Source: Polynucleobacter sp. Adler-ghost
GTDB lineage: Bacteria; Pseudomonadota; Gammaproteobacteria; Burkholderiales; Burkholderiaceae
NCBI RefSeq assembly: GCF_018688495.1
Contig: NZ_CP061320.1
Span: forward strand, 2,037,027 to 2,101,026
Length of the DNA: 64,000 nt
Reading direction: 5' to 3'
Part shown: piece after piece, positions 28,920 through 44,648 of the stretch
Position numbering within the stretch: the first letter of the stretch is position 1
Layout of the letters: each line of letters begins with the position of its first letter
Made by a program: the position numbers and the translations under genes
Notes under the pieces: generated by a model
Database searches by the model: none
What the model saw: only the letters and a program-made list of their open reading frames with translations
What the model was told of the DNA's origin: nothing

Positions 28920-28992
28920 GAAAAAACCACCCTAAGGTGGTTTTAATGTTTCATGGGGGCCCGGGGCAGAATCGACCAGGGCCTAGAGCGCC
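28920..28992 (-). repeat. Hairpin plus tRNA 3'-end-like remnant (copy D)
   Basis: AAAAAACCACC/GGTGGTTTT is followed by GTTTCATGGGGGCCCGGGGCAGAATCGACC. GGCCCGGGGCAGAATCGA differs by one base from the equivalent part of the intact tRNA-Phe. It also acts as the dps terminator. Confidence 0.75.
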
Positions 28993-29006
28993 AAATACTT
29001 AAGGCA

Positions 29007-29612: not shown

Positions 29613-29669
29613 AAGATTTCTCCAATAGATTACGGTGGCTAGATGCCACAAAAATTAGTTAATACGTAG

Positions 29670-30002
29670 TTAACTAATCAGTCTTGGAGGTTTGAATATA
29701 TGGCTTGGAACTGCCTCAACAATGAGTTGGGGCACTTGAGAAACAAAGTGATTTGAGAAATCTGGCTCAATATATTGGCTGGTAGATAAGTTTGCTACTA
29801 CGCCCAAACAGCATTGATGCTGTGCTTGATGGTTGGTTGATTGCGACTTCTCAACATTCACATCACTTTTTGTATGGCAATCATGCTGAACTACATGCCC
29901 AGAATGAGCTTGTGATTTGAAGTCAGCAGATAAGGGCATGCTGCCCGCGTGGATCAGGCTGGCAAATAAACTAAAGCAAAGGGTGATACATATCCTTCTC
30001 AT
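29670..30002 (-). CDS. Exported His/Cys-rich small protein, putative metal-binding
   Basis: A signal peptide ([15 protein letters not shown]) precedes a mature chain with clustered His and Cys ([23 protein letters not shown]) and the ending [11 protein letters not shown], which recalls the short exported DUF2946/CopL-type proteins of copper resistance loci. It lies 57 bases upstream of the His/Met-tailed membrane protein gene, same direction. Together they look like a small metal-handling operon; the metal is inferred, not shown. Confidence 0.6.
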
Positions 30003-30026
30003 AATTCCATTCTACGCCCAACAAAT

Positions 30027-30052
30027 AAAAAATCACCCGAAGATGGTTTTGG
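30027..30052 (-). terminator. Hairpin beside the truncated tRNA-Phe (copy A)
   Basis: AAAAAATCACC/AGATGGTTTT is an imperfect stem. The A-run on the left reads as a U-run on the minus strand, the position expected for a terminator of a tRNA gene read leftward. Confidence 0.65.
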
Positions 30053-30059
30053 TGTTTCT

Positions 30060-30105
30060 TGGTGGCCCGGGGCGGAATCGAACCACCGACACAAGGATTT
30101 TCAAT
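30060..30105 (-). pseudogene. 3' half of tRNA-Phe, displaced (copy A)
   Basis: These 46 bases are identical to the 3' half of the intact tRNA-Phe, from CCA to the anticodon loop; identity stops right after the loop (TTTTCAAT). It looks like the chromosomal 3' half pushed left when the 2.1-kb acyltransferase segment inserted and brought a replacement 3' half. Confidence 0.9.
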
Positions 30106-30150
30106 TATCCGCCTAAGCCAACTTTTGCAAGCCACCTTGGAAAGTTGACG

Positions 30151-31947
30151 CTATTCTTCAAATTTTTGGAATACCTGCTCAGAACCAATAGTCGTTAAGT
30201 ACCCATTCGTCCTATAAAGCAGTCCTCCGTTAATTCTCATTTCACAGTCCTGCTCATTACAAACTTGTGGATAAGTGTCATATGATTTAATTTTTAACTC
30301 ATTGACTAACTTTTTAAGATTTTCTCTACCAATAAAATATTGTCCATCAATATCTTTAACTTTTTGAGCGCACCCTACATTCAATACCGGACGGAAAGGC
30401 GGCATACCTACACACTCAATTGGGTCAAATGACAGATGCGGCGGCGGATATATAAAGATTACTTGTTTATTATTTTTTCTAAAAAATTCAATTGTCCTTC
30501 TCAACTGCGCTGTTATTAAATTTGTAATTTCAGGTTGAGTCATTGTTAATACAACAGCTCTTATATTCTTATCTTCAGCAACGCCATTAATTAATTTATT
30601 CATTTGCTCTGATTGCTCTGAATCATAGTTTTTGTCGGAGGACAGTTTAATCAATGGCTGCCTGCCAGGCCATCCAACCATAGCAAAGTTTTTTCCATCT
30701 TCTAAATATTTTTTTGCCAAACCGGAGTAGTCATTGTGAGCAATACTATCGCCAATCAATACTGTTTCTAATTTCTGAGTAACATTTGATAGCCTACAAA
30801 ATGTTGGCTGATACTTAGCAAACATTATTAGGCAGCCTTCATCCGATTGCGGAGGGCGTCCGCCGTGTAAATCTAATACGTGCTTCTCCCTAAACTCTAA
30901 TCCATTTCTAACATAGGCACTCCAGCCCTGTGTTCCCACCAATATCACTAAAAATAGTAATGTTATGGTTACTTTATTGCCCTTACGTCGTAATAGCTTT
31001 TCCCAGTACCGATAAGTTAGATAAGCTAAGGCTATAGAAATAATTATTAAAATTATTTTGTAAAACGCAGATAATTTTCCAGCAGTAATGATTTGCCCAA
31101 AACTTAATAAAGGCCAATGCCAAAGATAAAGCGGGTAACTAATTAATCCAAACCAAATTATTAATTTATTTGAAAAGATATTTTTATTTGCCCAACCATC
31201 TTTTCCTGCCGCAATAAGAAATACAGTGCCCAATGTAGGAAGCAATGCCCACCATCCGGGGAATGCACTCTTTTTATTTAAGGCGTAAATGGCAAGGGCT
31301 ATTAAAAACAATCCTGCAACAGACAGGACGTTTGAATACTTAACACTAAATTTATTAGTGATACTTTCTTTTGTAAGGGACATGTATGCCCATACAGCAC
31401 CAATTAGTAATTCCCAAAAACGACTAATAGGGGAATAAAAAGCGGCAATAGGATTGCTTCCGATTGTTAATACATTTGTAGCAAAAGATATGATGAGAAT
31501 GAGTAGTACAACTTTGAGTACATTAAATTTTTTCTTAAAAGCAGCCCACAACACTAATGGCCAAAATATATAGAACTGCTCTTCTATAGCTAATGACCAT
31601 AAATGTAGCAATGGTTTTGTATCAGAAGCATTATCAAAGTAACCACTCTCCCTCCATAAAGCAAAGTTCTGTAAGAAGCCAGCCCCAGCGGCAATGTGCT
31701 CACCTAACTGCTTATATTCTGAGGCGTATAAAGCAAACCAACCAAATGCGTAGCAAGTCAATAGCACTAAAAATAATGCCGGAAATATTCTTCTTATACG
31801 TCGGCTATAAAACTCAATAAAACTAAAAGAACCGCTTTGTAAATTTTCTAAAATAATTGTTGTTATTAGAAAACCAGATATTACAAAAAAAATGTCTACC
31901 CCAATAAATCCACCGCTAATTACATTTGGAAAGGCGTGAAAAGTCAC
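30151..31947 (-). CDS. OafA-like O-acyltransferase (acyltransferase 3 plus SGNH domain)
   Basis: It adds acetyl groups to surface polysaccharide. About ten membrane segments form the acyltransferase 3 domain, with RRIRRIFPALF as the family motif; the C-terminal 220 residues look like an SGNH hydrolase (VLIGDSIAHND). The listed start is GTG, but the conserved YRPDIDGLRALAVLSV lies upstream in the same frame. That frame opens only after a TAA with ATA at 32022 as its best initiator, so the true start is missing or mutated. AT-rich cargo of element 1. Confidence 0.85.
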   Translation of the reverse strand: MTFHAFPNVISGGFIGVDIFFVISGFLITTIILENLQSGSFSFIEFYSRRIRRIFPALFLVLLTCYAFGWFALYASEYKQLGEHIAAGAGFLQNFALWRESGYFDNASDTKPLLHLWSLAIEEQFYIFWPLVLWAAFKKKFNVLKVVLLILIISFATNVLTIGSNPIAAFYSPISRFWELLIGAVWAYMSLTKESITNKFSVKYSNVLSVAGLFLIALAIYALNKKSAFPGWWALLPTLGTVFLIAAGKDGWANKNIFSNKLIIWFGLISYPLYLWHWPLLSFGQIITAGKLSAFYKIILIIISIALAYLTYRYWEKLLRRKGNKVTITLLFLVILVGTQGWSAYVRNGLEFREKHVLDLHGGRPPQSDEGCLIMFAKYQPTFCRLSNVTQKLETVLIGDSIAHNDYSGLAKKYLEDGKNFAMVGWPGRQPLIKLSSDKNYDSEQSEQMNKLINGVAEDKNIRAVVLTMTQPEITNLITAQLRRTIEFFRKNNKQVIFIYPPPHLSFDPIECVGMPPFRPVLNVGCAQKVKDIDGQYFIGRENLKKLVNELKIKSYDTYPQVCNEQDCEMRINGGLLYRTNGYLTTIGSEQVFQKFEE

Positions 31948-32135
31948 TACAGATAAAACTGCTAACGCACGTAAGCCATCAATATCGGGGCGATACTTTT
32001 GGTGAAGTAAAAATAAATTTATGATTTTATGTTTTTAAAAAGTATGTAGTCTAACTTTACCCCACCCTCCGTCACTTAAATCGACGCTTCATGCCGGGGA
32101 TGTCTAAGACTAATGGCGCCTAACCCTGCTAGAGC

Positions 32136-32165
32136 ATAAAAAATAGCCAAACAAGTGGGCTATTG
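32136..32165 (-). terminator. Terminator downstream of tRNA-Phe
   Basis: AATAGCC and GGGCTATT pair around a 9-base loop; the A-run on the left is a U-run in the tRNA transcript. Its stem differs in sequence from the CCACC/GGTGG hairpins, in line with its having arrived with element 1. Confidence 0.75.
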
Positions 32166-32172
32166 AGATTCT

Positions 32173-32248
32173 TGGTGGCCCGGGGCGGAATCGAACCACC
32201 GACACAAGGATTTTCAATCCTCTGCTCTACCGACTGAGCTACCAGGCC
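32173..32248 (-). tRNA. tRNA-Phe (GAA), intact
   Basis: A 76-base tRNA with encoded CCA. The acceptor stem GGCCTGG pairs with CCGGGCC. The D-loop holds GGTAG...GG, the anticodon loop TTGAAAA carries GAA, and the T-loop holds GGTTCGATTCC. It is transcribed to the left. It is the only complete copy of three; its 3' half is shared with 30060 and its 5' half with 44500. Confidence 0.97.
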
Positions 32249-32271
32249 AAGAGTGGGAATTATAAATGAAA
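32211..32271. repeat. attL-type repeat of the 12-kb island
   Basis: These 61 bases match 44500-44560 with a single mismatch. They span the anticodon loop, the 5' half of tRNA-Phe and its upstream -10 region (TATAAT on the minus strand). They mark the left end of the island. Confidence 0.92.
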
Positions 32272-32290
32272 CTGTGTTTTAGCCTAGAAA
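32249..32290 (-). promoter_or_regulatory. Island-borne promoter of tRNA-Phe
   Basis: On the minus strand TATAAT lies 9 bases upstream of the tRNA 5' end and is preceded by AT-rich DNA. The first 23 bases match the corresponding flank at 44538-44560 with one mismatch; beyond that they diverge, so this promoter belongs to the element. Confidence 0.6.
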
Positions 32291-32389
32291 ATGCGGAAAA
32301 CTGGGTTTACTCTAGAGAAACGCTGTTGATCCTGTAAGGGTGCGGATGTTTCATCCTGTTTAACGGTGGACGACTGGCAGAGATATGGG

Positions 32390-32404
32390 AATCCTCTGCT
32401 CTAC
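32390..32404. repeat. Extra 15-bp fragment of tRNA-Phe sequence
   Basis: AATCCTCTGCTCTAC repeats part of the anticodon stem and D-arm of tRNA-Phe, 170 bases from the intact gene. It lies at the 3' end of the next small gene. It may be an old attachment site remnant. Confidence 0.6.
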
Positions 32405-32613
32405 GGCTTTATGGTCTTAGCTTTTATTAAACTTTGCTGTGCCTTAGCGACCTGCTGACGCTGTCTTTCCGCTTTAACAGCCTGCTGACTGCGCTTAACT
32501 TGTAGCCTAAGCGCATTGATACGCTGCTGCTCAGGTGTTAGTGGTTTTTGTGGCTTGATTGTGGCGACTTCTTTGATCAGCATAAAGATATTTAGTAGTG
32601 CCATGCCAAACAC
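32401..32613 (-). CDS. Small membrane/coiled-coil protein of unknown function
   Basis: A 70-residue protein with a short hydrophobic N-terminus (FGMALLNIFMLIKEVA) and a basic coiled-coil remainder rich in Gln, Lys and Arg (QRINALRLQVKRSQQAVKAERQRQQ). It starts 14 bases after the integrase stop, so it can be co-transcribed with it. No family is recognised. The C-terminal codons run into the 15-bp tRNA fragment. Confidence 0.55.
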   Translation of the reverse strand: MFGMALLNIFMLIKEVATIKPQKPLTPEQQRINALRLQVKRSQQAVKAERQRQQVAKAQQSLIKAKTIKP

Positions 32614-32627
32614 GGCACTACCTACTC

Positions 32628-33653
32628 TTAAATTAATACCTTCAAAATCATGTCTCGCTTCTGTTCGAGTGTATAGCCTACTGTTCCATACATATTAAAT
32701 TCACTGCCGCCGCTACTGTGTCCAGTAATGCTCTCAGCAAGGCGGGTGGGGATATCATTGCGAGCCTTCATCCTGTCAATAATGGCATGCCTAAACATAT
32801 GACTCTTAAAGTCAAATACCTTTAATGTTTTTTTAATAATTTGTGAGCAACTTGAATTGCCATTATCCCTTGCGTAATGTGGCACAAACCATTCACTATT
32901 TCGCCTCTTCGCAATCTTGTATAACTCTTTCGCAGCATCCAAAGATACCCCGCATAATGGAACAGCTCTAATACTTGACTTGGTCTTTCTGTCACTTAAG
33001 GTATTTCTCCGAATCCATAGATGCGGTATGTCGTGATCTAGTACACAGTCTTCCAATCGAGCAAACAAGGGCTCGCTTAGTCTAAATCCAGTATTAAGCT
33101 GAATTAAGGCAACCAACTTGTGTGGGGTTGAGTTCTTTAACAAATGCTCTTTTACTTGTTGTATCAATTGAGTGGTAATGATTGGCATTGGACGCCTTGT
33201 TTCACCCTCACCCCTAATCTTTAATGCCCTAAATGGGCTTAGTCTATCTATATCCAAATGCTTAAAAGCAACATTGAGCATGGCGTTAAGGGTGTTGTTA
33301 TGTTTACGAATACTTACAGGACTTAATCCTCTATTCAATTGGTAATCCCTATATTCAGTAATGTGCCAGTGCTTTAGCTCATCTAAAGTCAAGTCTCCAA
33401 AAAATTCTTTAAAGCTACGAAAGTGATAATTCGCATGTTTGACAAATGTAGGACGATGAGCAGATTTTGCTTCATTCATGTATATCTGAAAGGCATCTGT
33501 AATTGTAGGTAGCCTGCCACTTTTCTGTCTTGATAAATGCTCGCTAATAACTTTAGCAATGAACTCTTCTTCAAAGTTCATGCCGTTGACATTGATTAAC
33601 CGCTCGATTTTATCGAAGACGATTGGGTTTGGTTTTATTACGATGCTTCGCAT
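32628..33653 (-). CDS. Tyrosine recombinase / phage-type integrase (left end)
   Basis: The SAM-like core-binding domain (about residues 55-150) precedes the catalytic domain. The catalytic residues are Arg in NTGFRLSEPLF near residue 180, HxxR in SHMFRH, GHS and the nucleophilic Tyr in EFNMYGTVGY near residue 325. Its position 380 bases inside the left attachment repeat is typical of the enzyme that moves the island. The preceding gene (DUF6641) ends 75 bases upstream. Confidence 0.92.
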   Translation of the reverse strand: MRSIVIKPNPIVFDKIERLINVNGMNFEEEFIAKVISEHLSRQKSGRLPTITDAFQIYMNEAKSAHRPTFVKHANYHFRSFKEFFGDLTLDELKHWHITEYRDYQLNRGLSPVSIRKHNNTLNAMLNVAFKHLDIDRLSPFRALKIRGEGETRRPMPIITTQLIQQVKEHLLKNSTPHKLVALIQLNTGFRLSEPLFARLEDCVLDHDIPHLWIRRNTLSDRKTKSSIRAVPLCGVSLDAAKELYKIAKRRNSEWFVPHYARDNGNSSCSQIIKKTLKVFDFKSHMFRHAIIDRMKARNDIPTRLAESITGHSSGGSEFNMYGTVGYTLEQKRDMILKVLI

Positions 33654-33728
33654 AGTTTTCCTTGTTAAAGTAAAGTTGGATTACTCCGCGAACAAGGTGC
33701 CGTGGTTGACACGACACCTCTTAACAAC

Positions 33729-34169
33729 TTACTTACGAAAACCTGCTCTTAGTGCGCCACTAGCAAACTCAATTTGACCATCTAGTTCACCCGCTTCTAC
33801 TGCGCTTTTCACTAGCTCAAGCGCTTTCACTAACTCCGTAGGATTACCGACTTCAACGCTATGCTTGCCTTTAGCAAGCTCAAGTGGACGACTGCCGTAT
33901 TTCACACAAAAGCAGACTTTGCCCAACTCGTTCTTAAACCACCATTCGCGAATACGCTTTGGCATTTCTATTTGCTTGCGTAGCCCCGTTTCTTTATCCG
34001 TAAAGCTACGATACTTTTTGACTACAAATTGCGTGCCATCTATTTGACTTTTAGCTAACTGAATTTGTTCCCACAATTTATTTGATAGCTTTTGCCTACG
34101 CATCACTAAAGCTGGTAAATGCGTCGGCTTTTTGGCACTAGTAATTTTTAATCCGTCTAAAACACCCAT
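33729..34169 (-). CDS. DUF6641 family protein
   Basis: A 146-residue protein I recognise as DUF6641, common in Burkholderiales islands and beside integrases. The pattern PTHLPALVMRRQKLSNKLWEQI near the N-terminus, KYGSRPLELAKGKHSVEVG in the middle and SGALRAGFRK at the end are diagnostic. Function is unknown; small single-domain proteins like this in such places are often excision or control factors, which is a guess. Five copies of ACTTGGT lie just upstream of its start. Confidence 0.75.
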   Translation of the reverse strand: MGVLDGLKITSAKKPTHLPALVMRRQKLSNKLWEQIQLAKSQIDGTQFVVKKYRSFTDKETGLRKQIEMPKRIREWWFKNELGKVCFCVKYGSRPLELAKGKHSVEVGNPTELVKALELVKSAVEAGELDGQIEFASGALRAGFRK

Positions 34170-34187
34170 TTTCTTTCTCCTAAATTA

Positions 34188-34237
34188 ACTTGGTTTACTT
34201 GGTTCTTTAGGTCACTTGGTGACTTGGTGAACTTGGT
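34188..34237. repeat. Five ACTTGGT iteron-like heptamers
   Basis: Exact copies begin at 34188, 34197, 34214, 34222 and 34231, i.e. at steps of 9, 17, 8 and 9 bases, all in one orientation. They sit directly upstream of the DUF6641 start. They resemble repressor, integrase-arm or replication-initiator binding sites. Confidence 0.75.
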
Positions 34238-34241
34238 CGAT

Positions 34242-34312
34242 ATAGGTTTAAGAAAACGCAGGTTTTTTGCTGTTTCTGAGTGATAAAAAACCTGCTTTTC
34301 CATAAACCCTTT
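34242..34312. repeat. Long inverted repeat sharing the K+ cassette repeat sequence
   Basis: Two inverted arms related to AAAACCTGCTTTTCCTTAAACCTA (shown in two parts: AAAACCTGCTTTTCC and TTAAACCTA) with about 14 bases between. Single copies of the same unit border the Kup module at 38095 and 42418. Confidence 0.75.
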
Positions 34313-35122
34313 ATAAACATTAGCTTCAAAGGCAATAAAGGACTACCAAAAAAGGCAGAAATTCGTCGTTTTTTGACTATACGGGGGGTGTTGTTAAAAC
34401 TTCGTAATCAGCAATTTCGTGAAATGCGCTTAATACCGAAACAAGAAATTTACAAAAATAGCCCTAGCAATACCTATTAATTTCGCAAATACAAAATTGA
34501 TTATTAGGTCTAACTAGGTGGTAATTACGTCAAAACCTTCTTGTCGCTTCACTGCGCATAGTGTTCTTGTCAAAGAGCAATTAAAAGCACTCAAATCAGC
34601 ACTACAAGCGTGCGATATATCGAATCAGTTAGCTGAGTAGCTGAAATACGCAAAACAGCGCAGTGAGCTTGTAATTAACCCCTTAAATACACCATACCAA
34701 ATAAGACTAATTTATTTGCGGTGTTTTATTAGGTTAGCTAAATAAACACATACAAATGAGACTTAAAGTTGGCACGCTGAATGTAATAGTGCTGTGAAAT
34801 CCGTTCTGATGTGTGACGGTACACAAGAGTTGCTCATTACTCGCTTCTTCGCACTAACTAGCTGATGGCTAGATGCTTAAACGACGTCTCGATATGACAG
34901 CACCGTTTGCGAAGTCGTAATAGTTGGTAACGCAGTAATGCGTGAATAAAGTGAGTGGGATGCCACAAATTAACCCACAAACACACCCACATGGCTTCTG
35001 GCATTGGTAGTGAGTGTGTTGCGTAAGACGAGTACATAAAAGGAGATCGCAAAACCTGCCTTTCTTGTTAAATCAAGTTGTGCGTGCCAGTTGTTAATCC
35101 TCAGTAATGATTAGCTATCGCT

Positions 35123-35270
35123 ACGCCTTTATTAAGGCGTGGCTTGACTTCCTAGCAATGACCAACCCAAAAGCAAAACCCTTAATAAATCATTTAATAA
35201 AAAATTAAAGAAATGAGCGGCAAACAAAAGCGTTAGCTTTTGTGTAGACGCAAGCGAACTTTAGTTCGCT
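35123..35270 (+). promoter_or_regulatory. Three hairpins in the leader of a small gene
   Basis: ACGCCTT-TATT-AAGGCGT, CAAAAGC-GTTA-GCTTTTG and AGCGAAC-TTTA-GTTCGCT are perfect stems within 150 bases, each with a 4-base loop and none with a long T-run. They could form a structured 5' leader for the gene at 35314 or be part of a small RNA. Confidence 0.5.
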
Positions 35271-35313
35271 CTTAAATGAGCTCTGAAGTTAAGCTAAAGA
35301 TTTAAGGGAAATT

Positions 35314-35475
35314 ATGAGCGCATACAAAGTGACCTATACCGCTTATTCAAAGGGAAGTACTGAAGTAGTAAGTGAAGGGGTAATGGAGATTAATACAAGC
35401 ACTGCTTATCAAGCCGAACAAGCAGTAAAAGCAATATTTGCTGGACTTGATGTGCTTATTAGGTATACAAATTGA
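35314..35475 (+). CDS. Small 53-residue protein, unknown
   Basis: ATG follows AAGGGAAATT, a good ribosome site. The product MSAYKVTYTAYSKG... contains alternating beta-type residues and a helix, ending LDVLIRYTN. It looks like a compact single-domain protein; such short proteins are common in phage-derived islands. No family is recognised. Its stop overlaps the long frame of the next gene, and co-transcription is likely. Confidence 0.6.
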   Translation: MSAYKVTYTAYSKGSTEVVSEGVMEINTSTAYQAEQAVKAIFAGLDVLIRYTN

Positions 35476-35525
35476 GTATGGTGAACTTTTACAAGATTAC
35501 CTGCCTTACTCACAATGGATGCTCA

Positions 35526-36194
35526 ATGAAAACATATAAGAATTACTTGATAGCAACAGCCTTGGCCCTCGCCGCCTTTCTTGTTCTTAAGTTTCCTATG
35601 CTTTTTTCCCTTTCGGGTGATGTAGCTGCCGCAGCCTCTTTATGTGGCGCCCTAATTGCTGCGGCGGCAATATTTGTTGGAAATCAAATAAACATTAATG
35701 CGACCAATGACTTAAGGGCTGAAGAGCGGGAACAAGAGCGGGAATCGATCAGATGTCTGTTGATGTCTGAAATTGTTCCAATCTTCATCAGGCATGTAAA
35801 AGAAGCCAAACAATATATTGACTTATGTCAATTCATTACCCAAGGCGGACAAGCTGTAGTGCCATGGAGTGGTCACTATCAAATACTTGAAGCCAGCATC
35901 TATCATTCATTGATTAAAGAGCTTATTAAGCTGCCAGCTAAAGAAGCGGACGCATTGGTTACGCTCTACAGCCAGATGGTTGATACGCAAAAGGGCTTGG
36001 ATAGCCTAATTGGATTGAATCTAGGTCAAATCAATCATTCAACAGCTCTAAAGTTAGCGAATCAGCTATCGGCAGATTGTGAGGCGGCAGCAAAAGTAGT
36101 TCAACTAATTGCCCCAAAACGACAAATTAAGTTAGTAAATGGCAAAGTCATTAACTTCGTAGAGTTACTAAAAGATCCATCCCTTTTTGGGTAG
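35526..36194 (+). CDS. Two-helix membrane protein of unknown function
   Basis: Two N-terminal membrane segments (about residues 7-25 and 31-52) are followed by a cytoplasmic, mostly helical domain of about 165 residues with the start RAEEREQERESIRCLLMSEIVPIFIRHVKEAKQY. I chose the ATG beginning MKTYKNYL because it puts the membrane segments at the N-terminus; starts at 35472 or 35478 are also possible. I recognise no family. A 12-bp-stem hairpin follows it. Confidence 0.65.
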   Translation: MKTYKNYLIATALALAAFLVLKFPMLFSLSGDVAAAASLCGALIAAAAIFVGNQININATNDLRAEEREQERESIRCLLMSEIVPIFIRHVKEAKQYIDLCQFITQGGQAVVPWSGHYQILEASIYHSLIKELIKLPAKEADALVTLYSQMVDTQKGLDSLIGLNLGQINHSTALKLANQLSADCEAAAKVVQLIAPKRQIKLVNGKVINFVELLKDPSLFG

Positions 36195-36222
36195 ACTCCT
36201 CAAAATTTAACTAAATACCAAT

Positions 36223-36252
36223 ACATAAGGTTTCGTGTGAAACCTTATGTTT
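36223..36252 (+). terminator. Perfect 12-bp-stem hairpin
   Basis: ACATAAGGTTTC and GAAACCTTATGT pair around the loop GTGT, followed by TTTA. It ends the membrane protein gene and lies 48 bases before the recombinase start. The T-run is short. Confidence 0.7.
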
Positions 36253-36297
36253 TATGGGATAGAGGGCATAACCTCTTGAAATAACTGAGGAAAAATA

Positions 36298-36963
36298 TTG
36301 ATAAGAAAAGATGAAATTTCGGTAGGAAAAAATTACATAAGAAATTACGCTGCTGCTATAGCAACCTTATATTTGGACAAGAAAACTATGGCAAAGCAGG
36401 CAAAAACACTCAATCAGCAAGAGTTACGCAAAGTACTCGATTACATATCAACCCGCAAACATGCTGCCCGTAATAGAGCGTTACTAATGACTACTTTTTT
36501 AAGCGGTATGCGTGTCGGGGAAGTTAGCAGTTTGAGATTTAAGGATGTTGTAGATAGTGATGGCAATATCCGTCATGAAATACGCTTAACGCCAGAAATG
36601 ACTAAGGGTGAGTTTGCTAGGGTGGTATTCGTAAATGAGCGATTGCGTAAAGAGCTACACCAATACATACGCTTCTATAACCCACAAGACAAGACTATGA
36701 AGTTCTTTTATAGTCAAAAGCGGAATAGCGATGGCTTTACTGCTAATACCTTGACACAGCACTTCCACTTTCTATACAAACGGGCTGGCATAGATGGCGC
36801 ATCCAGCCATAGTGGTCGCAGGAGCTTTATTACCAATCTCGCTAGCAAGGGCGTATCTGTTCGTGTGCTAATGAGCCTTGCGGGCCATAGATCCATCTCT
36901 ACTACTCAGGCCTATATCGACATTAATGACAATATGCTCCGAGGTGCTGTCGAGTTAGTTTAA
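36298..36963 (+). CDS. Tyrosine recombinase (small, XerC-like)
   Basis: At 221 residues it is short; the N-terminal DNA-binding part is reduced to about 45 residues, and the catalytic domain follows. Catalytic residues: Arg in LSGMRVGEVSSLR near residue 75, HxxR in SSHSGRRSF, GHRS and Tyr in TTQAYIDI. A TTG start is read because GAGGA lies 7 bases upstream. Its 3' end overlaps the unknown minus-strand gene by 4 bases. It may be a resolvase or a shuffling enzyme of the island rather than its integrase. Confidence 0.88.
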   Translation: MIRKDEISVGKNYIRNYAAAIATLYLDKKTMAKQAKTLNQQELRKVLDYISTRKHAARNRALLMTTFLSGMRVGEVSSLRFKDVVDSDGNIRHEIRLTPEMTKGEFARVVFVNERLRKELHQYIRFYNPQDKTMKFFYSQKRNSDGFTANTLTQHFHFLYKRAGIDGASSHSGRRSFITNLASKGVSVRVLMSLAGHRSISTTQAYIDINDNMLRGAVELV

Positions 36964-38033
36964 TTGCCCCCTACCAGCAGAGGCTGTGGCAAGTCTTTTA
37001 AACTAAGGTACTTAATAAATTGATCTCCAATTTGCCAGTATTCAGAAGGCTCTATCTCATTCGTCAAAGTTAATGTTTGCTCAATAAACTGCGCATCTTT
37101 GAGCAAGTCTGGCAAAAGGAGGTATTTGAAATAATTTTCCCATTGCTGAATTTGTAGACGATTTCCTTTTACTGGCTTTGATGCCCCCTTGTATATATTA
37201 ATCATCTTCAAAAATTTACTATGTAAAAAATAGTAATACCGCTTGTAAGTGAAGTTAATAAGATATGACAACGCTTTATTTGTTGGTATTTCAGTCAAGC
37301 AAATATCTTCTAGCCTCTCAAGCTCTTCAGCCTCATAAGACCCATAGGTTTTGATTAATTGCGCTGCTTTCTTATATTCATCTATACAGCTTATTAGCCA
37401 TAATTCAGTTAGACCTAACCTTGCCCCATCAGCAGCATCTTTATATTCTTTGTATTGCTTGTGGGCATCAGAAAATTCAAGGATTGCCTCAGCCTGCTCT
37501 TGGGGTCTGGATATTGATAGTATGTGCGACTTATTTGCCTCATTTAAATATGTCGTCCATATCTCCTCCAACTCTTCGCTATGAAATGATTCTTGAAGAT
37601 CAAAAGGAAAGCCATACTCTCTTTCATAATCACGCTGACTTTCATACTTTTCTAGTATCTGTTTCATACTTCTGTATTGACCAGTTTCAGTGTCATAGAC
37701 CTCAAAGTAATTTGGGACGTAGAAATCTGGGTCATTAATAATTGATCTAATAATTTGCTCGACTCTTACTCTATTAGCATCCCATAATCGTTGACCATTC
37801 TCAACTAAATTATTGATAAGAAAATATCTCAGCCCTGAGGTGTTTGCTAAAAAAATTTGGTCTTGAAGGTATTGGTCAATCAACTGCTGAACTGTTTGAT
37901 ATAAAGGATCTTTCTGGCCTAGACTTAATATCTCTGGATATTCGCCAATCAAATCTAACTTGGATTGCCTGAGAGCGCCCGCTTTGTTCTTAATATATGA
38001 GTTCCACTCGGGCTGGTTTTGAATTAAGTTCAT
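36960..38033 (-). CDS. Large protein of unknown function in the island
   Basis: A 357-residue, acidic, mostly helical protein with no signal peptide or membrane segment. It has many Tyr, Glu and Gln residues and a hydrophobic aromatic cluster (YKRYYYFLHSKF near residue 265). I see no catalytic motif and recognise no family. It is convergent with the small recombinase gene (4-base overlap of stops) and stands before the left copy of the K+ cassette repeat. It could be an abortive-infection or maintenance protein, but nothing in the sequence shows that. Confidence 0.6.
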   Translation of the reverse strand: MNLIQNQPEWNSYIKNKAGALRQSKLDLIGEYPEILSLGQKDPLYQTVQQLIDQYLQDQIFLANTSGLRYFLINNLVENGQRLWDANRVRVEQIIRSIINDPDFYVPNYFEVYDTETGQYRSMKQILEKYESQRDYEREYGFPFDLQESFHSEELEEIWTTYLNEANKSHILSISRPQEQAEAILEFSDAHKQYKEYKDAADGARLGLTELWLISCIDEYKKAAQLIKTYGSYEAEELERLEDICLTEIPTNKALSYLINFTYKRYYYFLHSKFLKMINIYKGASKPVKGNRLQIQQWENYFKYLLLPDLLKDAQFIEQTLTLTNEIEPSEYWQIGDQFIKYLSLKDLPQPLLVGGN

Positions 38034-38094
38034 GGCTGTATCAAATTAGTTAAGACTTTTTGAATTCTAAGCCCAGCCGAATACTTTGGGATTG

Positions 38095-38153
38095 ATTAAA
38101 AAGCAGGTTTTTCATAACATACCAAAAAAAACCTGCTTTTCCTTAAACCTATA
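38095..38153. repeat. Left copy of the K+ cassette repeat, with Kup stop
   Basis: About four-fifths identical to 42418-42476 and identical at both ends (ATTAAAAAGCAG and TTTTCCTTAAACCTATA). It forms a hairpin with A/T-runs and contains the TAG stop of kup on the minus strand, so it doubles as the kup terminator. Confidence 0.85.
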
Positions 38154-40086
38154 TTTCTACCTTTGCCCCCAACTCAACAACCCTATTGGTTGGTATTGAA
38201 AAGAAGTCTGATGGCTTGGCGGCATTTTGATACATCCATGCGAATAGCCTTTCTCTCCATAACGCCATTCCTGGGATTGCCGAAGGAACCACCGTATCTC
38301 GAGCCAAGAAGAAAGAAGTTTCCATTGGCTCACATTTAATGTCGTATTGATTGGCCAATAACTCCATAATTTGATTAATGTCTGGAGTCTCTTTAAAGCC
38401 ATACATTGCTCTTACTAGATAAACTCCACCACCCATCTCCTTCAAGTTGATGCGATCCTTGTCCTCAACATAAGGAACATCCCAAATACTCATTTTGAGA
38501 AAAATAACTCTCTTGTGGAGAACTTGATTGTGCTTAAGGTTATGAAGCATTGCGACAGGTACATAGTCAACATGCGCCGTCAAAAATACTGCCGTACCAT
38601 TAACTCGAATTGGCTCACTTACCAATAAAGACTTGATAAATGCTTCAAGTGGAATGCCGCCCTCGATTGCCTTCTGGCGCAATAACATTCTGCCTTTGTA
38701 CCAAGTAATCAATAAAAGGAAGCATAGTGCCCCAAGCAATAATGGGAACCATCCACCTTCAGCAATTTTTAAAGCATTAGCCGCAAAGAAGGCAATATCT
38801 ACCAGAAGAAAGACTCCAATCACAGTCGAAACTAAGATTGAATTCCACTTCCACACAGACTTCATTACTATTGCCGCTAATAAAGTAGTGATCACCATAG
38901 TCGTTGTTACCGCAATTCCATAAGCGGCCGCTAGATTACTTGATTGCTTAAATGCCAACACTACAGCAATGACCAAAGCCAATAACATCCAGTTAATTGT
39001 TGGCATATAAATTTGTCCAACTTCTTTGTCTGATGTGTAGGCAATTTTCATGCGCGGAACAAAGCCTAGCAATATGGCTTGGCTGGTCATGGAATACGCG
39101 CCAGATATTACTGCTTGCGAAGCAATGACGGTAGCCATTGTTGCGAGGATCACGAGGCCAAGCGTATACGCCTCAGGAACCATTAAGAAAAATGGATTTG
39201 ATATTGCCTCTGGATTAGACAAGAGCATGGCTCCTTGTCCAAAATAATTAATGAGCAGGCAAGGCATTGTTAATAAGAACCATGCGTATTGAATCGGTCT
39301 AATACCAAAGTGCCCCATATCAGCATAGAGCGCTTCTGCGCCTGTTAATACTAAAAATACTGCCCCCAAAACTATGAATGCTTGTAGGGAATGCTCAAGT
39401 AAAAAGTTAATGGCAAATATTGGATTGGCCGCAAGTAAAATATTGGGGTTATCAATAATGTTGTATGCGCCCATTAACCCAAGAACCAAGAACCATGCCA
39501 CCATGATTGGCCCAAATAAAAAACCAACTAAAGCAGTTCCTTTTTTCTGAATTAAAAATAGGGCGACAAGAATAGTGAGCGTTATAGGAATGACATACTT
39601 GGTAAATTGAGGAGAAACAATTTCAAGCCCTTCGACTGCCGATAGCACTGAAATTGCGGGTGTAATAACAGCGTCTCCATAAAACATACAAGCACCAAAT
39701 ACGCCTAGCATCATGATCATCAATGCCCTCTTGGAGTTTGCTGGCGCAGTTCTGAGGGCTAATGCCATCAAAGCCAGTATTCCGCCTTCGCCATGATTAT
39801 TGGCTCGCATAACAAAGAGGACATATTTGAGAGAAACAACAATTAAGAAAGCCCAGAAGACCATCGATATCACTCCAAACACCGCATCCGATGAAAACGG
39901 AATGCCATGCTCAGGGCTAAAACATTCTTTTAGCGCATACAGGGGGCTGGTTCCAATATCTCCGAAAACTACACCAATGGCCGCAAGAGTTAGGGCGGGA
40001 ACGCTCCCTTTGCTGTGGTGGCCACCCTTAATCTCTATTGGACGAAGAATGTTTGACTGTGAATACTCTGGATTACTAATGGACAT
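38149..40086 (-). CDS. kup: Potassium transporter Kup
   Basis: H+-coupled K+ uptake protein of the inner membrane. Twelve or so hydrophobic segments start at residue 30, with the family block [17 protein letters not shown] near residue 37 and [15 protein letters not shown] helices further on. The soluble C-terminal domain has [23 protein letters not shown]. Length 645 is normal. The two-component system upstream (62 bases) and the lack of kdpFABC suggest that this transporter is the regulated target; this is inference. Confidence 0.96.
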
Positions 40087-40149
40087 GGTCTTACTCGTTG
40101 ATTTGAATACCCCATCAGATCATGTGCGATGTATCAATCGCATAAACAA

Positions 40150-40836
40150 CTATGAAATAGCTAAGCGGTAGCCTACACCAAGCTCAGTTAATAGGTATTC
40201 AGGCTCAGAAGATACTTTTTCTATCTTGGCCCTTAATCTACCCATATGAATTCTGAGGTAATGGGTGTCATCCACATATTCAGAACCCCAAATTTCTGAA
40301 AGTAATTGGCGCTGGGTAAAGATTCTTCCTGGCTTTGTAGCCAATAGCATTAGCAACTTATGCTCTATTGGGCTTAGATGTATGTCATTACCCTCCAGCT
40401 TTACCAGTCCAGCAGACACATCAATTAGCAAGTCTTTGTATTGATAGCACTGATCGCGCATAGACATCTTTTGAGTGCGTCTTAAGCAAACATTGATTCT
40501 TGCTAATAGCTCTTGAACATTAAATGGCTTAGACAAATAATCGTCTGCGCCTTCATTGAGGGCAATAATCTTTTCCTGCTCCTCTTGCCTTGCTGAGAGG
40601 ACAATAATCGGAAAATCATATTGCTTTCTTACTTGCTGAATTAAATCTTTTCCATCACCATCTGGCAACCCTAAATCGAGAATCATGAGCTTTGGCGTAT
40701 TTTCAGCCAAACATTTATTTGCCTCTTCTAAAGATTTGGCTAATTTAGGAAGGTGCTTTGCGGCACTCAAGCTAGCTACTAAGAAATGGGCAATTTGCTC
40801 ATCATCTTCTACAACCAAGATGTAATCTGAAATCAT
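40150..40836 (-). CDS. OmpR-family response regulator, KdpE-like
   Basis: A receiver domain (phosphoacceptor Asp in MILDLGLPDGDG near residue 56, Lys in DDYLSKPF near residue 105) and a winged-helix DNA-binding domain (residues about 130-225, with LSPIEHKLLMLLATKPGRIFTQRQLLSEIWG). 228 residues, close to KdpE. It overlaps the kinase gene by ATGA, so the pair is translationally coupled, and it is followed by kup. Its target is likely the kup promoter; no binding site is identified. Confidence 0.93.
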   Translation of the reverse strand: MISDYILVVEDDEQIAHFLVASLSAAKHLPKLAKSLEEANKCLAENTPKLMILDLGLPDGDGKDLIQQVRKQYDFPIIVLSARQEEQEKIIALNEGADDYLSKPFNVQELLARINVCLRRTQKMSMRDQCYQYKDLLIDVSAGLVKLEGNDIHLSPIEHKLLMLLATKPGRIFTQRQLLSEIWGSEYVDDTHYLRIHMGRLRAKIEKVSSEPEYLLTELGVGYRLAIS

Positions 40837-42338
40837 GCGCTTGCTTTAAAAGGAAAGGCCATACCAACATATGTCTTCTTATTATCGCCAAATGGAGACT
40901 CGATGATTAGCCAGCCTTGATGCTTATCCATCACTGCCCTAACTATAGGCAAACCCAAACCAAACCCTTTTTTATTGCGCTGATATGACTGTTGCTGTCC
41001 CGCTAATTCCTTATCAAAATCCTTAGGAAATCCAGCACCCTCATCAATTACGCCAATCCGAATTTCGCCATCAACCCTATCTACCAATATCTGTATTGGA
41101 TTGCTGCCTAAATGTGCCTTGCTTGCGTTCTCAATCAAATTAGTTAATGCCAATACGATTAAGGCTTGATCACCATAGATAAGTTCATCTTTTGCCATCA
41201 TTAGCAATTCTAGTGATGGCTTTACTTCTCTATTGTTATATCTCGACATAACCGCCCCAACAATTTCTTCGGGCGACTGCCAATCCATTCGCATCTGGTT
41301 ACCATCAGACATTCCCAGCTTAACCAAAGATAGTATGTTTTCAGTTGAGTCATTGAGATATACAGATTCTGAATGAATTAGCTCTAACAGCTGTATGGAT
41401 TGCGCTTCTCCCAACTGCTGACCCTGCTTCAAAAGTGATGAGCTGGCGCCAATAATAGTAGTTAAAGGAGTTCTCATATCATGCGAGATAGACGACAAGA
41501 AAGCCTTTTGAATAGACTCGCGATGCGCTAACTCGCTGGCATCTTTTGCTTTAATTTCTGCTATTCTTTTTTGATAATGAACTGATAGCTGATCAGCAAT
41601 TGCCCTTATCAGGCTCACTTCAATATTTTCTTCGTGCGCCCTCTCAATTACCAAAGCAGGAAGCTCGTGGCTTTTGTAATATCTTCCAAGTGGAACACAC
41701 CAATAATCTATTGCCTCTGAGGTTCCCGTATGTGGACCCAACATAGCTCCGTACTCAATTGCGTGTGAGAGGTACCAAAAGTCGAGCTTTACTTCACCCG
41801 GCCTAGAGCTTGCTAATTCAATACTGTCTTTGGTTGTTGGATCTAACTTCAAAATCGCAACCTCACATCCCAGCTCTCTTTTAAGCAATAGGCAGAATTT
41901 CTGTAAAGCAACCATAGAGTCAGTCTCTACTGAGAATATTTCGATAATCGCTCGTAATAGATTGGCTTTAAAGGTTTCTTTTTCGGCAATGTCCTTTTGG
42001 CCTCTTAACTGATGTACCAAAGAGGTAATCGCAATAGATACCAATAAAAATCCAAGCAATGCGCTCCAAGACTCAATACTTCCGATAACAAAGGTATATC
42101 TCGGCTCTACATAAAAGAAATTAATGAGAAGAAAAGATGCTATTGCTACAAAGATAGAGGTGGCTAATTGGCTCTTGTAGGAAACCCAGATGACAAGAAT
42201 CAAATAGAGAAATGACACTCCCGCCAAACCAAGATAATCATCAACCACATGGGATAAGGCGGTTATCCCAATCATTCCCAGAAAAATGCTCATTGCCTCA
42301 AGTAAGAGCGGGCGTTTCGAAGATTTTCTATTTGTCAT
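40833..42338 (-). CDS. KdpD-like sensor histidine kinase lacking the N-terminal KdpD/USP part
   Basis: A DUF4118-type four-helix membrane block (about residues 12-105, ending INFFYVEPRYTF) leads to a linker and GAF-like region, the phosphorylated His in FLSSISHDMRTPLTT near residue 290, and the HATPase domain with NLIENASKA and GFGLGLPIV. KdpD is normally about 900 residues with a large N-terminal KdpD and USP sensor; this 501-residue form lacks it. The start is uncertain: 42338, 42353 and 42449 are all possible. It probably senses turgor or K+ by its membrane part. Confidence 0.85.
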   Translation of the reverse strand: MTNRKSSKRPLLLEAMSIFLGMIGITALSHVVDDYLGLAGVSFLYLILVIWVSYKSQLATSIFVAIASFLLINFFYVEPRYTFVIGSIESWSALLGFLLVSIAITSLVHQLRGQKDIAEKETFKANLLRAIIEIFSVETDSMVALQKFCLLLKRELGCEVAILKLDPTTKDSIELASSRPGEVKLDFWYLSHAIEYGAMLGPHTGTSEAIDYWCVPLGRYYKSHELPALVIERAHEENIEVSLIRAIADQLSVHYQKRIAEIKAKDASELAHRESIQKAFLSSISHDMRTPLTTIIGASSSLLKQGQQLGEAQSIQLLELIHSESVYLNDSTENILSLVKLGMSDGNQMRMDWQSPEEIVGAVMSRYNNREVKPSLELLMMAKDELIYGDQALIVLALTNLIENASKAHLGSNPIQILVDRVDGEIRIGVIDEGAGFPKDFDKELAGQQQSYQRNKKGFGLGLPIVRAVMDKHQGWLIIESPFGDNKKTYVGMAFPFKASA

Positions 42339-42417
42339 ACGATCAATATACATTCGACCATATATCAATCGCATATACATCTTTGAGGTGGCTAAAAAGT
42401 CACTAAACATAAGGTTT

Positions 42418-42476
42418 ATTAAAAAGCAGATTTTTTCACGACCCTCCAAAAAAACCTACTTTTCCTTAAACCTATA
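42418..42476. repeat. Right copy of the K+ cassette repeat
   Basis: Same orientation as the copy at 38095. It contains the TAG stop of the 193-residue gene at exactly the position where kup's TAG sits in the other copy, so the same 3' end is attached to two unrelated genes. Confidence 0.85.
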
Positions 42477-43053
42477 CCTTCTTAGTCTTTTTGGCAGGCT
42501 TTTTTCCTTCCCTTAGCCATTCAAGATGCTCTCGCTCTTCATCACTAAGGGTATCTTCAGCCCGCTCAAGTGTTTGCTTTTCTAACTCTCTTATTTCTTT
42601 ATCTCTTTTATTTGCCACGCCTCTGTCAAGGCTTGGCGTAAATCCCGCCTGTCTCACAGCAATGTTTCCAGCGCTATGTTTATCTTGTAATCCCGTAGCG
42701 CCAAAAAAACCCTTTAAGTAAGCCTTAGTAGCTTGCGCCTGCTCTCTAGCTAACTGCTTTAGATGAATATTTATAATATCTCCCTCTAACTCACCCAATG
42801 CCTGCCTATAGATTTCAATACGCACTTCGCGCTTATCTTTCCAACCTAGATTTTGCTTTTCTTCTTCAGTCTTTGGTGGTTTATGTTTTTTGCGCAATGC
42901 TTGTTGTTGAGTCCACGCATCAGCCAGCGCTCTTTGTTGCCCTTCAGTTAGCAAAGTGCCATTCTTATTCTGGTGAACTTCTTCACCACGCTCTAGCTGA
43001 TCAATGACTTCTTGTATGCGGCTTGGTAAGTGTGTGGCATTTAACTTTGGCAT
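42472..43053 (-). CDS. Charged coiled-coil protein of unknown function
   Basis: A 193-residue, Lys/Glu/Gln-rich helical protein with no membrane segment. The C-terminal part (DKEIRELEKQTLERAEDTLSDEEREHLEWL) looks like a coiled coil, and the tail KKPAKKTKKV is basic. I recognise no family. It is 23 bases downstream of the right-end integrase on the same strand and may be co-transcribed with it. Confidence 0.6.
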   Translation of the reverse strand: MPKLNATHLPSRIQEVIDQLERGEEVHQNKNGTLLTEGQQRALADAWTQQQALRKKHKPPKTEEEKQNLGWKDKREVRIEIYRQALGELEGDIINIHLKQLAREQAQATKAYLKGFFGATGLQDKHSAGNIAVRQAGFTPSLDRGVANKRDKEIRELEKQTLERAEDTLSDEEREHLEWLREGKKPAKKTKKV

Positions 43054-43076
43054 AGGTAGCAGTTCCGCTATGTATT

Positions 43077-44288
43077 TTAGCCAAGGATATCAGCCTTTAA
43101 CATCGGCGTGAGCTTGCTGTAATGCCGCTCAATCATCCCAACACTCGTACCCATTTGCTTGGCCAAGGTGTGTATGTCGACGCCCTTGGCTAACGCTTGG
43201 GTAGCATAGGTATGGCGAAGGCTGTAAAGCGTCCTGTTCTGCCCACTAGTATCTTTACGCAAATGGCTACGCATCATTAAGTTACGAAAGATGTTCTCCA
43301 TGTGGCTTAGCTGACTGTTATCAGGCAATACGAAGATCAACTTATTCAATCTTGCTTCAATCACCGTATTCAAGTTCTTGTATTCCAGCTTTTGCCACTT
43401 AATCAATTGCTCTAGTACAGCGACTACTTCACGCCTAGCAATTAAGTAGCGCGGTCCTGTTTTGCCACTGACCCAAATACGCAGATACTTTTTATTACCA
43501 ACCCAATACCACTGTAGATGTTGCCATCGCACACGCAAGGCTTCTGTGCCGTGCCTAACACCTGTATGTAGCAAGAACTGAACATACGCGCCGCAGAGTA
43601 TGCGCATCTTTAGCGTGTGTTCTGTGTAGGAACTCTTTTGCCAAGTCTCTAAGTAGCTCAGCATCGTTGCCACTTCTTCGTTATTAAACGCGGGGCGCGG
43701 CATACCCTTTGCGCCTTTGCTGTTTAAGGCCGGCACGATATGGCTTGCCGTAACCATGCCACGCTCGCGAGCTAGATTAATTACGCGGTTATAAGCACTT
43801 GAGTGATTTAGCTTCGTGCTTCCTTTTGGCACCTTGCCCATCATCGCAATACGCCACGCTTCAAAGTCCGCAATGAGTTCAGGCGTGATGTCTTTAATTT
43901 CATAAGCGCCGAAGAAAGGAATTAAGTATTTGTTAATCGCAAATTCGTAATCTCTATACGCACGCTTACCTGTACTGGCATTAATTAAGCGACGCATATT
44001 TTCTAATTCGTCTAACGCAATTTGCTTAAACGACCTCATCGTCAACGCTAAGCCGAAGTTTATTTTTATTTGTGCTGTGTGATAAATCGAGACTGCTTGT
44101 ATCTTTGCTTGCTCAACATCATCTGTGCCTGTTGTTGCGTGATGCCACTTGTTGTTCGCTAACTTAAATCGACACTGCCACTGTGACGAGCTGGGACGCT
44201 TATAAACATTGATTTTTCCGTCCATTAGCTTAATGACAGCATCGTCACTAACAACTGCGTTAGCAAAAAGAAAATTGAGATTAGACAT
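43077..44288 (-). CDS. Tyrosine recombinase / phage-type integrase (right end)
   Basis: A full-length 403-residue integrase: N-terminal arm-binding region, core-binding domain (about residues 110-200) and catalytic domain. Arg is in LHTGVRHGTEAL near residue 245, YSLRHTYAT supplies the box II arginine and histidine near residue 350, and the nucleophile Tyr is in MIERHYSKL near residue 388. It lies 212 bases from the right attachment copy, the place expected for the enzyme that carries out the anticodon-loop insertion. Confidence 0.95.
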   Translation of the reverse strand: MSNLNFLFANAVVSDDAVIKLMDGKINVYKRPSSSQWQCRFKLANNKWHHATTGTDDVEQAKIQAVSIYHTAQIKINFGLALTMRSFKQIALDELENMRRLINASTGKRAYRDYEFAINKYLIPFFGAYEIKDITPELIADFEAWRIAMMGKVPKGSTKLNHSSAYNRVINLARERGMVTASHIVPALNSKGAKGMPRPAFNNEEVATMLSYLETWQKSSYTEHTLKMRILCGAYVQFLLHTGVRHGTEALRVRWQHLQWYWVGNKKYLRIWVSGKTGPRYLIARREVVAVLEQLIKWQKLEYKNLNTVIEARLNKLIFVLPDNSQLSHMENIFRNLMMRSHLRKDTSGQNRTLYSLRHTYATQALAKGVDIHTLAKQMGTSVGMIERHYSKLTPMLKADILG

Positions 44289-44648
44289 AGCAACTCGCGA
44301 AATAAAAATTACGCTTGCTATTGTGTTGTCAGATAATTATTTGTGCGACTGAAATATTTTTGCCGCGCGACGCTCTGTGTATGCGTGTGATGTTTGTAGT
44401 TTTTTTATTTGTCGCCGAACCCGCAGATGCCTATTTTACAAGGGTTTGCGGGTAGCTTAAGTCAATGTCTTAGCACTGTTTTTTACTCAAAAATTAGCGT
44501 TTTCAATCCTCTGCTCTACCGACTGAGCTACCAGGCCAAGAGTGGAAATTATAAATGAAAGTGCGTTCCCGCCTGAAAATCGGGTCAATTCTTCTTAAGT
44601 CTTGGATAAATCCCGATATTCCTTAGCTAGAGGCTCTTACATCAAGGC
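44289..44648. other. Intergenic region between the right-end integrase and the OsmC-YcaO gene
   Basis: This 360-base gap contains the integrase promoter region (AT-rich), an imperfect ACCCGCA...TGCGGGT inverted repeat (44410-44453) and the truncated tRNA-Phe with its native promoter at 44500-44560. No gene is seen in it. Confidence 0.6.
44500..44537 (-). pseudogene. 5' half of tRNA-Phe, cut off by the island (copy C)
   Basis: Thirty-eight bases identical to the 5' half of tRNA-Phe, ending in the anticodon loop. The native upstream region with TATAAT follows to the right. With the 3' half missing it cannot give a tRNA; it is the displaced chromosomal 5' half and the right attachment site. Confidence 0.95.

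Follow-up and report, generated by a model that had tools for sequence, protein, structure and literature searches.

The last 64 kb of the complete 2,101,026-bp genome of Polynucleobacter sp. Adler-ghost (the whole stretch analysed here, hereafter the window) hold one intact and two partial copies of tRNA-Phe. These copies bound a small element with an acyltransferase gene (element 1) and a larger island with three tyrosine recombinases, int1, int2 and int3 (element 2). We propose that tRNA-Phe is a two-sided attachment site, used as such across the genus, for a tyrosine-recombinase family and that the intact copy is a chimera left by two tandem integrations; from the comparison of DNA sequences, we put the probability of this reading at about 0.9.

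Three copies of tRNA-Phe and their junctions

ARAGORN identified a single tRNA gene in the window, a tRNA-Phe (GAA) on the minus strand at 32173–32248 (copy B). A search of the whole genome with this gene returned one full match, B itself, and two identical partial matches on the minus strand, exactly where a sequence-only reading of the window had placed them. Copy A (30060–30105; bases 1–46 of the plus-strand image) is a displaced 3' half and copy C (44500–44537; bases 39–76) a displaced host 5' half. All remaining matches were 70–79% identical or short pieces, and no second intact tRNA-Phe was found in the 2.1-Mb complete genome. With an 8-bp core counted in, the run lengths claimed in that reading hold: A and B share 50 identical bases, while B and C share 46 and, after one mismatch, are identical again to base 61 (60 of 61). 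At the core, A and C have only TTTTCAAT in common. To this extent the proposed 8-bp core stands, but the overlap conserved across the genus is 7 bp, TTTTCAA (30098–30104 in A, 32211–32217 in B and 44500–44506 in C). It spans bases 39–45, which on the RNA strand are tRNA positions 32–38, the anticodon loop; the eighth base in A is most likely shared by accident.

The same break points recur in relatives. We read the locus in 92 genomes, 63 picked by synteny of tRNA and YcaO gene, 13 by hand without synteny and 16 for an int3 relative near tRNA-Phe (genomes and loci are given by our own handles, G or L with a number); BLAST hits below 36 bits and DNA matches shorter than 150 bp were dropped. There we counted 37 3' fragments of the anticodon type, 132 of the T-loop type and 30 fragments of the 5' half. 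Twenty-nine of the 37 stop at base 45, the last of the overlap, and 24 of the 30 begin at base 39, its first, as do three further 5' fragments outside the 30. Exact copies of 46 and 38 bases, together with identical break points recurring in relatives, exclude chance. The GC content is 36.3% and 40.8% in the elements and 42.4% and 46.4% in the flanks.

Comparison of the flanks separates host from element DNA. The right flank of C enters the OsmC–YcaO gene (44649–46853, minus strand), the right-hand chromosomal anchor, and matches at 92% identity the DNA beside the intact tRNA-Phe of G074, a genome that lacks a right-hand island. Counted from the start of the core, the right flank of B parts from that of C after 61 bases; it is similar to the right flanks of other islands. 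To the left, B is flanked by a terminator and arm seen at the right ends of other left-side cassettes, and A by the other common terminator type. From these comparisons, element 1 contributed the 3' half of B and element 2 the 5' half. In 28 of the 63 syntenic genomes, no more than 250 bp separates an intact tRNA-Phe from the YcaO gene, and a right-hand island is lacking; in the other 35 the gap is 633–40,386 bp.

Relatives also carry the two insertions apart. Polynucleobacter parvulilacunae Ross1-W9 (G041) has the same B–C island, with 88–90% DNA identity in the two longest shared stretches and 77–84% in others, and a nearly identical C arm in a different host flank; the 8.1 kb read to its left held T-loop fragments but no A-like 3' half-fragment. 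G079 matches the DNA left of A at 94% (29900–30104) and then carries a different anticodon-loop element exactly there. Together with the break points, these genomes support the earlier claim of two separate integrations, both cut in the anticodon loop, and junctions A–B and B–C bear out the claimed 2.1-kb acyltransferase element and 12.3-kb island. Of the description as nested, the tandem arrangement stands, but the events are better described as insertions on opposite sides of one gene.

The same reading had predicted that, in genomes without the elements, the left flank of A would be joined to the right flank of C at one tRNA-Phe. Seven genomes without a right-hand island (G005, G006, G061, G081, G085, G096 and G171) align unbroken over 412–458 columns across the joined flanks, from terminator into YcaO gene, but left of the core this covers only ~70–90 bp. 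The DNA left of A is an older T-loop cassette, and the joined flanks therefore represent an unoccupied site with respect to these two elements alone. Of the 34 junction alignments, the remaining 27 were uninformative; 26 were short (133–159 columns, as also seen at occupied sites), and that of G044 represents captured flank, so that G044 is not an empty site.

The following scheme would account for these junctions. Strand exchange would occur over TTTTCAA, between two anticodon-stem half-sites. A 3'-type circle would consist of terminator and tRNA 3' half, core and arm; its insertion would displace the old 3' half to the left, as in A, and bring in another 3' half with its terminator. A 5'-type circle would consist of arm, core, and tRNA 5' half with promoter region; its insertion would displace the old 5' half to the right, as in C, and supply a new front half. 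Either insertion would leave one complete tRNA gene between the elements, so that later elements could reuse the core and arrays would grow outward on both sides. Here, a 2.1-kb 3'-type element and a 12.3-kb 5'-type island (int3, int2, DUF6641 and int1, with Kup and a KdpDE-like pair) would both have inserted, and B would therefore be wholly element-borne DNA. The tRNA is presumably expressed from the imported flank.

Fragments and integrases on the two sides of the gene

Fragments of the 5' half occurred in 24 of the 92 genomes (26 with the later-read G044 and G067), and in 16 of the 63 picked by synteny alone. Fourteen of the 24 also have left-hand fragments, anticodon-type in seven; the other ten have no recognised left-hand fragment, over 6–15 kb read in four and only 0.1–2.7 kb in six. 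Stretches with an intact tRNA contained no wrong-side fragments in the 92 genomes, a test that did not include locus L105 of G110.

We measured segments as the intervals between neighbouring fragments. Left-hand T-loop segments bounded in this way have a median of 1.1 kb (n = 130), left-hand anticodon-type segments without int3 2.7 kb (n = 29) and right-hand segments without int3 3.9 kb (n = 14), each of these 173 segments without int3 not necessarily being one element; int3-bearing segments measure ~11 kb (n = 21). The triad of int3, int2 and DUF6641 is present in all 21 bounded int3 elements, and none of the three occurs as an open reading frame (ORF) in the 173 other segments. A 4.6-kb 3'-type segment without int3 in G084 holds the Kup–Kdp cargo of element 2 at 94% DNA identity, and the same cargo has therefore travelled on both faces. 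Other cargo includes transporters, sensor kinases, a cytochrome bd oxidase, amidohydrolases and a BrnT toxin, in a survey of single-locus stretches that took cluster representatives no shorter than 110 aa (37 of 39 right-hand, 116 of 137 left-hand).

The segments without integrases share arms with those that have them. In pairs chosen by hand, the arm of the integrase-less 3'-type segment of G084 matches that of an int3a element in G006 (z score 10.5), and the arm of an integrase-less 5'-type segment in G107 matches the C arm of the window, of the int3w clade (z 4.7; 2 of 2,000 shuffles as high), three control pairs giving z values of −0.6 to 0.2. In addition, many islands, whether or not they carry int3, have the same 5'-type arm of 70 bases. 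Integrase-less elements would be mobilised in trans.

Relatives of int3 near tRNA-Phe form four clades. On a tree of 35 Polynucleobacter integrases, 20 on the 5' side and 15 on the 3' side, side changes once (support 86/70), a count as low in none of 500 shuffles. Of these integrases, 21 lie in fragment-bounded elements (13 5', 8 3'), and three on the 5' side were bounded later, when more DNA was read and the islands of G044, G067 and G089 each proved to have a 5' fragment behind them; a further 12 kb behind the G122 island contained none. A 68-row tree requires two changes of side, forced by well-supported branches, compared with a shuffled mean of 22.8–22.9 (0 of 500 as low). Its 33 added rows, from other genera, IMG/VR contigs, other tRNA genes and at least four Polynucleobacter, were taken in where the side could be told from a tRNA or a fragment of one (a 3' fragment alone for L236); other loci were omitted for giving no side or repeating a genome. 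Of the int3a-like genes at the named loci, all 14 that have a tRNA at most 1.5 kb away are on the 3' side of that tRNA (tRNA-Phe, -Lys and -Cys), and int3c-like L178 (220 bp), L280 and L282 (2.3 kb) are on the 5' side. At an E value of 1e-60, the family was found in 13 of 399 sampled genomes of the order, 8 of them outside the genus.

The clades also differ in anatomy. Elements of the int3w clade have the gene order and orientation of int3a elements, but carry the tRNA half on the integrase-distal arm. In the int3c clade the element is mostly reversed, with int3 beside the intact tRNA (268–341 bp in four genomes), G022 being an exception. In G044 (L155 1515–2195, L293 3639–3967), the tRNA-side arm contains 235 bp of host flank at 94% identity and the end of the YcaO gene, and YcaO sequence is duplicated, one copy on each side of the island; this anatomy suggests that 5'-type arms arise by host-flank capture.

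Two loci are recorded here as side observations. In an uncultured member of the Methylophilaceae (G578, contig C33, 113118–157470), a 5' fragment, an intact tRNA-Phe and two 3' fragments occur with int3 relatives on both sides. An int3c relative near a contig end (G009:C3 388405–389259) has its int3 frame interrupted by one stop.

Alternatives and the content of the two elements

The junctions, the overlap, the island without its left-hand partner, the side-specific integrase clades and the arm families are all legible in the DNA itself. Which recombinase acts on element 2 is a separate matter. The best candidate is int3 (403 aa; 43077–44288, minus strand), next to the integrase-proximal attachment (att) arm at 44289–44499. 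We regard it as unlikely that int1, or int1 with int2, integrates element 2 from near B and that int3 stems from an older element. The int1 gene (341 aa; 32628–33653, minus strand) lies 380 bp from B, encodes a full-length integrase by domain content and is also found beside DUF6641 in G183 and G109. By contrast, seven 5'-type islands (G000, G022, G041, G047, G070, G105 and G182) have int3 at a distance of 201–212 bp from the displaced fragment, and no int1 turned up in the other right-hand islands that we read in Polynucleobacter. The relatives of int1 are in 3'-type elements (92% identical in G183, 88% in G109) and near an int3c-type gene in L273; int1 therefore does not track polarity, and int3 does. 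As int1 is common to these 3'-type elements, element 2 is a mosaic.

Much less probable is a single 14.4-kb element integrated between A and C through the 8-bp core, with B as a carried, complementing tRNA-Phe, as in tRNA-dependent lysogeny. A and C do share only 8 bp, and a short core with a full element-borne tRNA is the signature given in the relevant part of PMC10865867. However, B repeats A on its 3' side and C on its 5' side, each to the same core, and ten of the 24 genomes with right-hand fragments have no recognised left-hand one; the island without an A-like junction in G041 and the different element at A in G079 lead us to reject this explanation. Least credible of all is an origin of the partial copies by homologous recombination or duplication of the tRNA region rather than site-specific exchange, for which the mosaic cargo, the imperfect repeats around the Kup–Kdp genes and the captured piece of YcaO gene in the right-hand arm of G044 would speak, but which does not fit same-base break points in 29 of 37 and 24 of 30 fragments, core-adjacent arms that form families or integrase clades that sort by side.

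Several observations weigh against the two-sided reading or parts of it. No recognisable 5' half-fragment was found in 19 of the 35 genomes with tRNA–YcaO gaps above 500 bp, and decay or other insertions therefore occur there; among gaps of this size, G035 retains an 18-base 5' remnant. Two right-hand segments without int3 contain DUF6641 remnants (G047 and G089). The A-side arm of element 1 is only weakly similar to other arms (z 2.1–2.4; 2.4 against the int3a arm), and the int3w arm of G182 is weakly like both the satellite arm (z 2.0) and the window arm (z 2.1). At L105 of G110, which lacks an intact tRNA, T-loop fragments lie on the right side (12011 and 13146) among 5'-type islands. For the remaining 11 of the 35 integrases on the first tree, side was assigned by position relative to the tRNA only. 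A Methylophilaceae contig carries an int3 relative, ~55% identical, on the 3' side of tRNA-Phe; polarity is therefore not fixed family-wide and has switched more than once, which weakens a strict rule equating int3 clade with side. In the other 185 genomes of the genus that were searched, no whole copy of element 1 was found, two candidates being scored per genome. Finally, int3 is a putative catalyst of element 2 integration by virtue of its position, in an element with three recombinases, and present-day excision to a circle is something the scheme has to presume.

Element 1 (30106–32172) measures ~2.11 kb from overlap to overlap. Its cargo is an acyltransferase-3 fused to an SGNH domain, of the O-antigen acetylase family (30151–31947, minus strand), and no integrase was found among its ORFs. 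Its right end (~32083–32172), made up of att arm and terminator, is also conserved among left-side cassettes elsewhere. The best match among the scored candidates was 66% identical over 1.35 kb, elsewhere in G074. We rejected the presence of a whole element 1 elsewhere in the genus, only the right arm and distant acyltransferases having matched, and its boundaries therefore rest on the junctions.

Decayed T-loop fragments of the tRNA-Phe 3' end on the minus strand, at 28954–28975 (2 of 22 mismatches) and probably 27032–27053 (5 of 22), each with a tRNA-type terminator in front, rule out that the left flank of A is pristine host DNA; the sequence-only reading had not listed these older remnants. 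Twenty block-shuffled copies of the window gave 0–3 hits each at up to 7 mismatches; the 28954 fragment is therefore secure, and that at 27032 draws its support mainly from the adjacent terminator. With these fragments, three and probably four insertions are recorded at tRNA-Phe. The older T-loop cassette (28976–30059) contains a DUF6803 gene (29007–29651) and a 110-aa gene (29670–30002), a pair that also lies between tRNA-Phe fragments in G079 and G083. More broadly, CBS, MAPEG, Dps and DUF6803 genes near the 27032 and 28954 fragments recur near or between the tRNA-Phe fragments of relatives.

Element 2 (32249–44499) measures 12,289 bp from overlap to overlap and regenerates the 5' half. It begins with the element-borne tRNA 5' flank (32249–32300), where a −10-like TATAAT on the minus strand was noted by eye. 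Consensus promoter scans gave no site at B or C, and no full sigma-70 site at B, and the TATAAT is therefore known by eye only; a terminator scan was negative at B and gave a single plus-strand hit at C. Beyond int1 follow the two other triad members, the DUF6641 gene (33729–34169, minus strand) and int2 (221 aa; 36298–36963, plus strand), of which the catalytic domain alone is recognised. The cargo comprises a Kup potassium transporter (38149–40086), a response regulator (40150–40836) and a histidine kinase with DUF4118 (40833–42449), all on the minus strand; we take the kinase to be KdpD-like and the regulator, by position and partner, to be KdpE-like. On either side of this cargo lie ~55-bp imperfect, hairpin-like direct repeats (38097–38150 and 42415–42474), which suggest that it entered element 2 by another route.

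Two short sequences were noted in the right-hand arm of B. Fifteen bases at 32390–32404, 140 bp right of B, are identical to the tRNA 5' half (aatcctctgctctac) and may reflect chance or an arm site. An anticodon-stem-like inverted repeat, ggatgtttcatcc, at 32344–32356 is similarly placed in many aligned right-hand arms and is a possible accessory integrase site.

Against the integron-integrase profile (cut-off 265 bits), int2 scored 45 bits and int3 20 bits, and int1 had no NCBIfam match; judged by integrase, attC sites not having been sought, element 2 is not an integron. We also rejected a temperate phage, finding neither a phage-close integrase nor structural genes. Two of 50,697 phage records match int3, at 23.7% identity over 73%, and among the seven element 2 proteins scanned PHROGs matched the three recombinases and DUF6641 (unknown family) and left three without a match. 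PADLOC detected no defence genes among the same seven proteins. No solved structure is related by sequence to int3 at an E value of 0.001, and we found no paper on DUF6641.

A proposed two-faced platform and its relation to known systems

With moderate confidence, we suggest that the tRNA-Phe anticodon loop is a two-faced cassette platform of freshwater betaproteobacteria. Such a platform would be served by two 5'- and two 3'-regenerating integrase clades and by satellites that copy their arms; arrays would grow outward, promoter and terminator halves would be replaceable, and 5'-type arms could come from host-flank capture, as in G044. It would be integron-like without attC, the tRNA being an obligatory marker rebuilt each time. 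One integrase family would then act with opposite polarities on the same seven bases, and a single intact tRNA gene could end up as a chimera whose promoter region and terminator each come from a mobile element. This would be a natural instance of a change of tRNA promoter or terminator being coupled to gene gain. From the junctions, many small cassettes and satellites of freshwater bacteria could also be delimited exactly, and ready attP/attB pairs with integrases would be at hand for testing what sets integration polarity.

An anticodon-loop class of islands in tRNA genes (tDNA islands) was reportedly described by Williams in 2002. The window has the marks of such islands: A lies downstream and C upstream, both in the orientation of B, the 7-bp overlap coincides with the anticodon loop, element 2 contains three tyrosine recombinases, and the right insertion is missing in the 28 syntenic genomes above. 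Element 1, lacking an integrase, therefore fits the definition only as a satellite. The portion of the Islander paper relevant here reports 3,919 islands, 3,760 with a 3' fragment and 159 with a 5' fragment, 2,083 being anticodon-centred (PMC4383910). As described there, such islands share with ours the bounds of intact gene and same-orientation fragment, anticodon-loop crossover and an internal tyrosine integrase. They differ in that, here, 3'- and 5'-type elements occupy one tRNA gene and integrase clades are tied to side; many of our elements, integrase-less or below 2 kb, would fail the algorithm as set out in that portion.

A likeness in polarity is offered by the pTN3-like archaeal integrases, whose elements, in the passages on these integrases, regenerate the 5' half and part the gene from its original promoter (PMC8371274, PMC5495485). 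They differ in being archaeal and, according to those passages, in that the integrase gene itself is disrupted on integration. The same passages mention no two-sided use, and 5'-half regeneration is there called seldom met in bacteria.

Tycheposons of Prochlorococcus are tRNA-linked tyrosine-recombinase elements with variable cargo. Their likeness to our elements is by description only, and the tRNA here is a different one; those of Methylophilaceae start at tRNA-Met with xerD, according to the pertinent passages of PMC10872708. The additive islands of Methylophilaceae treated in these passages resemble our T-loop arrays, with cargo arranged between short tRNA-end repeats (20 bp, tRNA-Lys). 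The repeat is described there as the last 20 bp of the gene; its letters, as printed, resemble the reverse complement of the tRNA 5' end, and the array may be of the 5' type. Neither use of both sides of one gene nor anticodon-loop elements are described in those passages. tRNA-dependent lysogeny, as outlined in part of PMC10865867, likewise uses a short core in an essential tRNA gene, but here the junctions themselves restore the tRNA, instead of a full copy inside the element taking its place. Two elements have B as their common junction, and we do not place the locus in that class.

In the literature we noticed no Polynucleobacter tRNA-Phe island or two-sided tRNA site, and no description of both polarities on one tRNA gene, polarity-sorted integrase clades or satellites on two faces, which is weak evidence of absence. 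Islands in tDNA, arrays built on T-loop fragments and, rarely, islands of the 5' half had been described before; what is new here is the two-sided arrangement, in which integrase clades are specific to a side and elements without integrases occur on either face.

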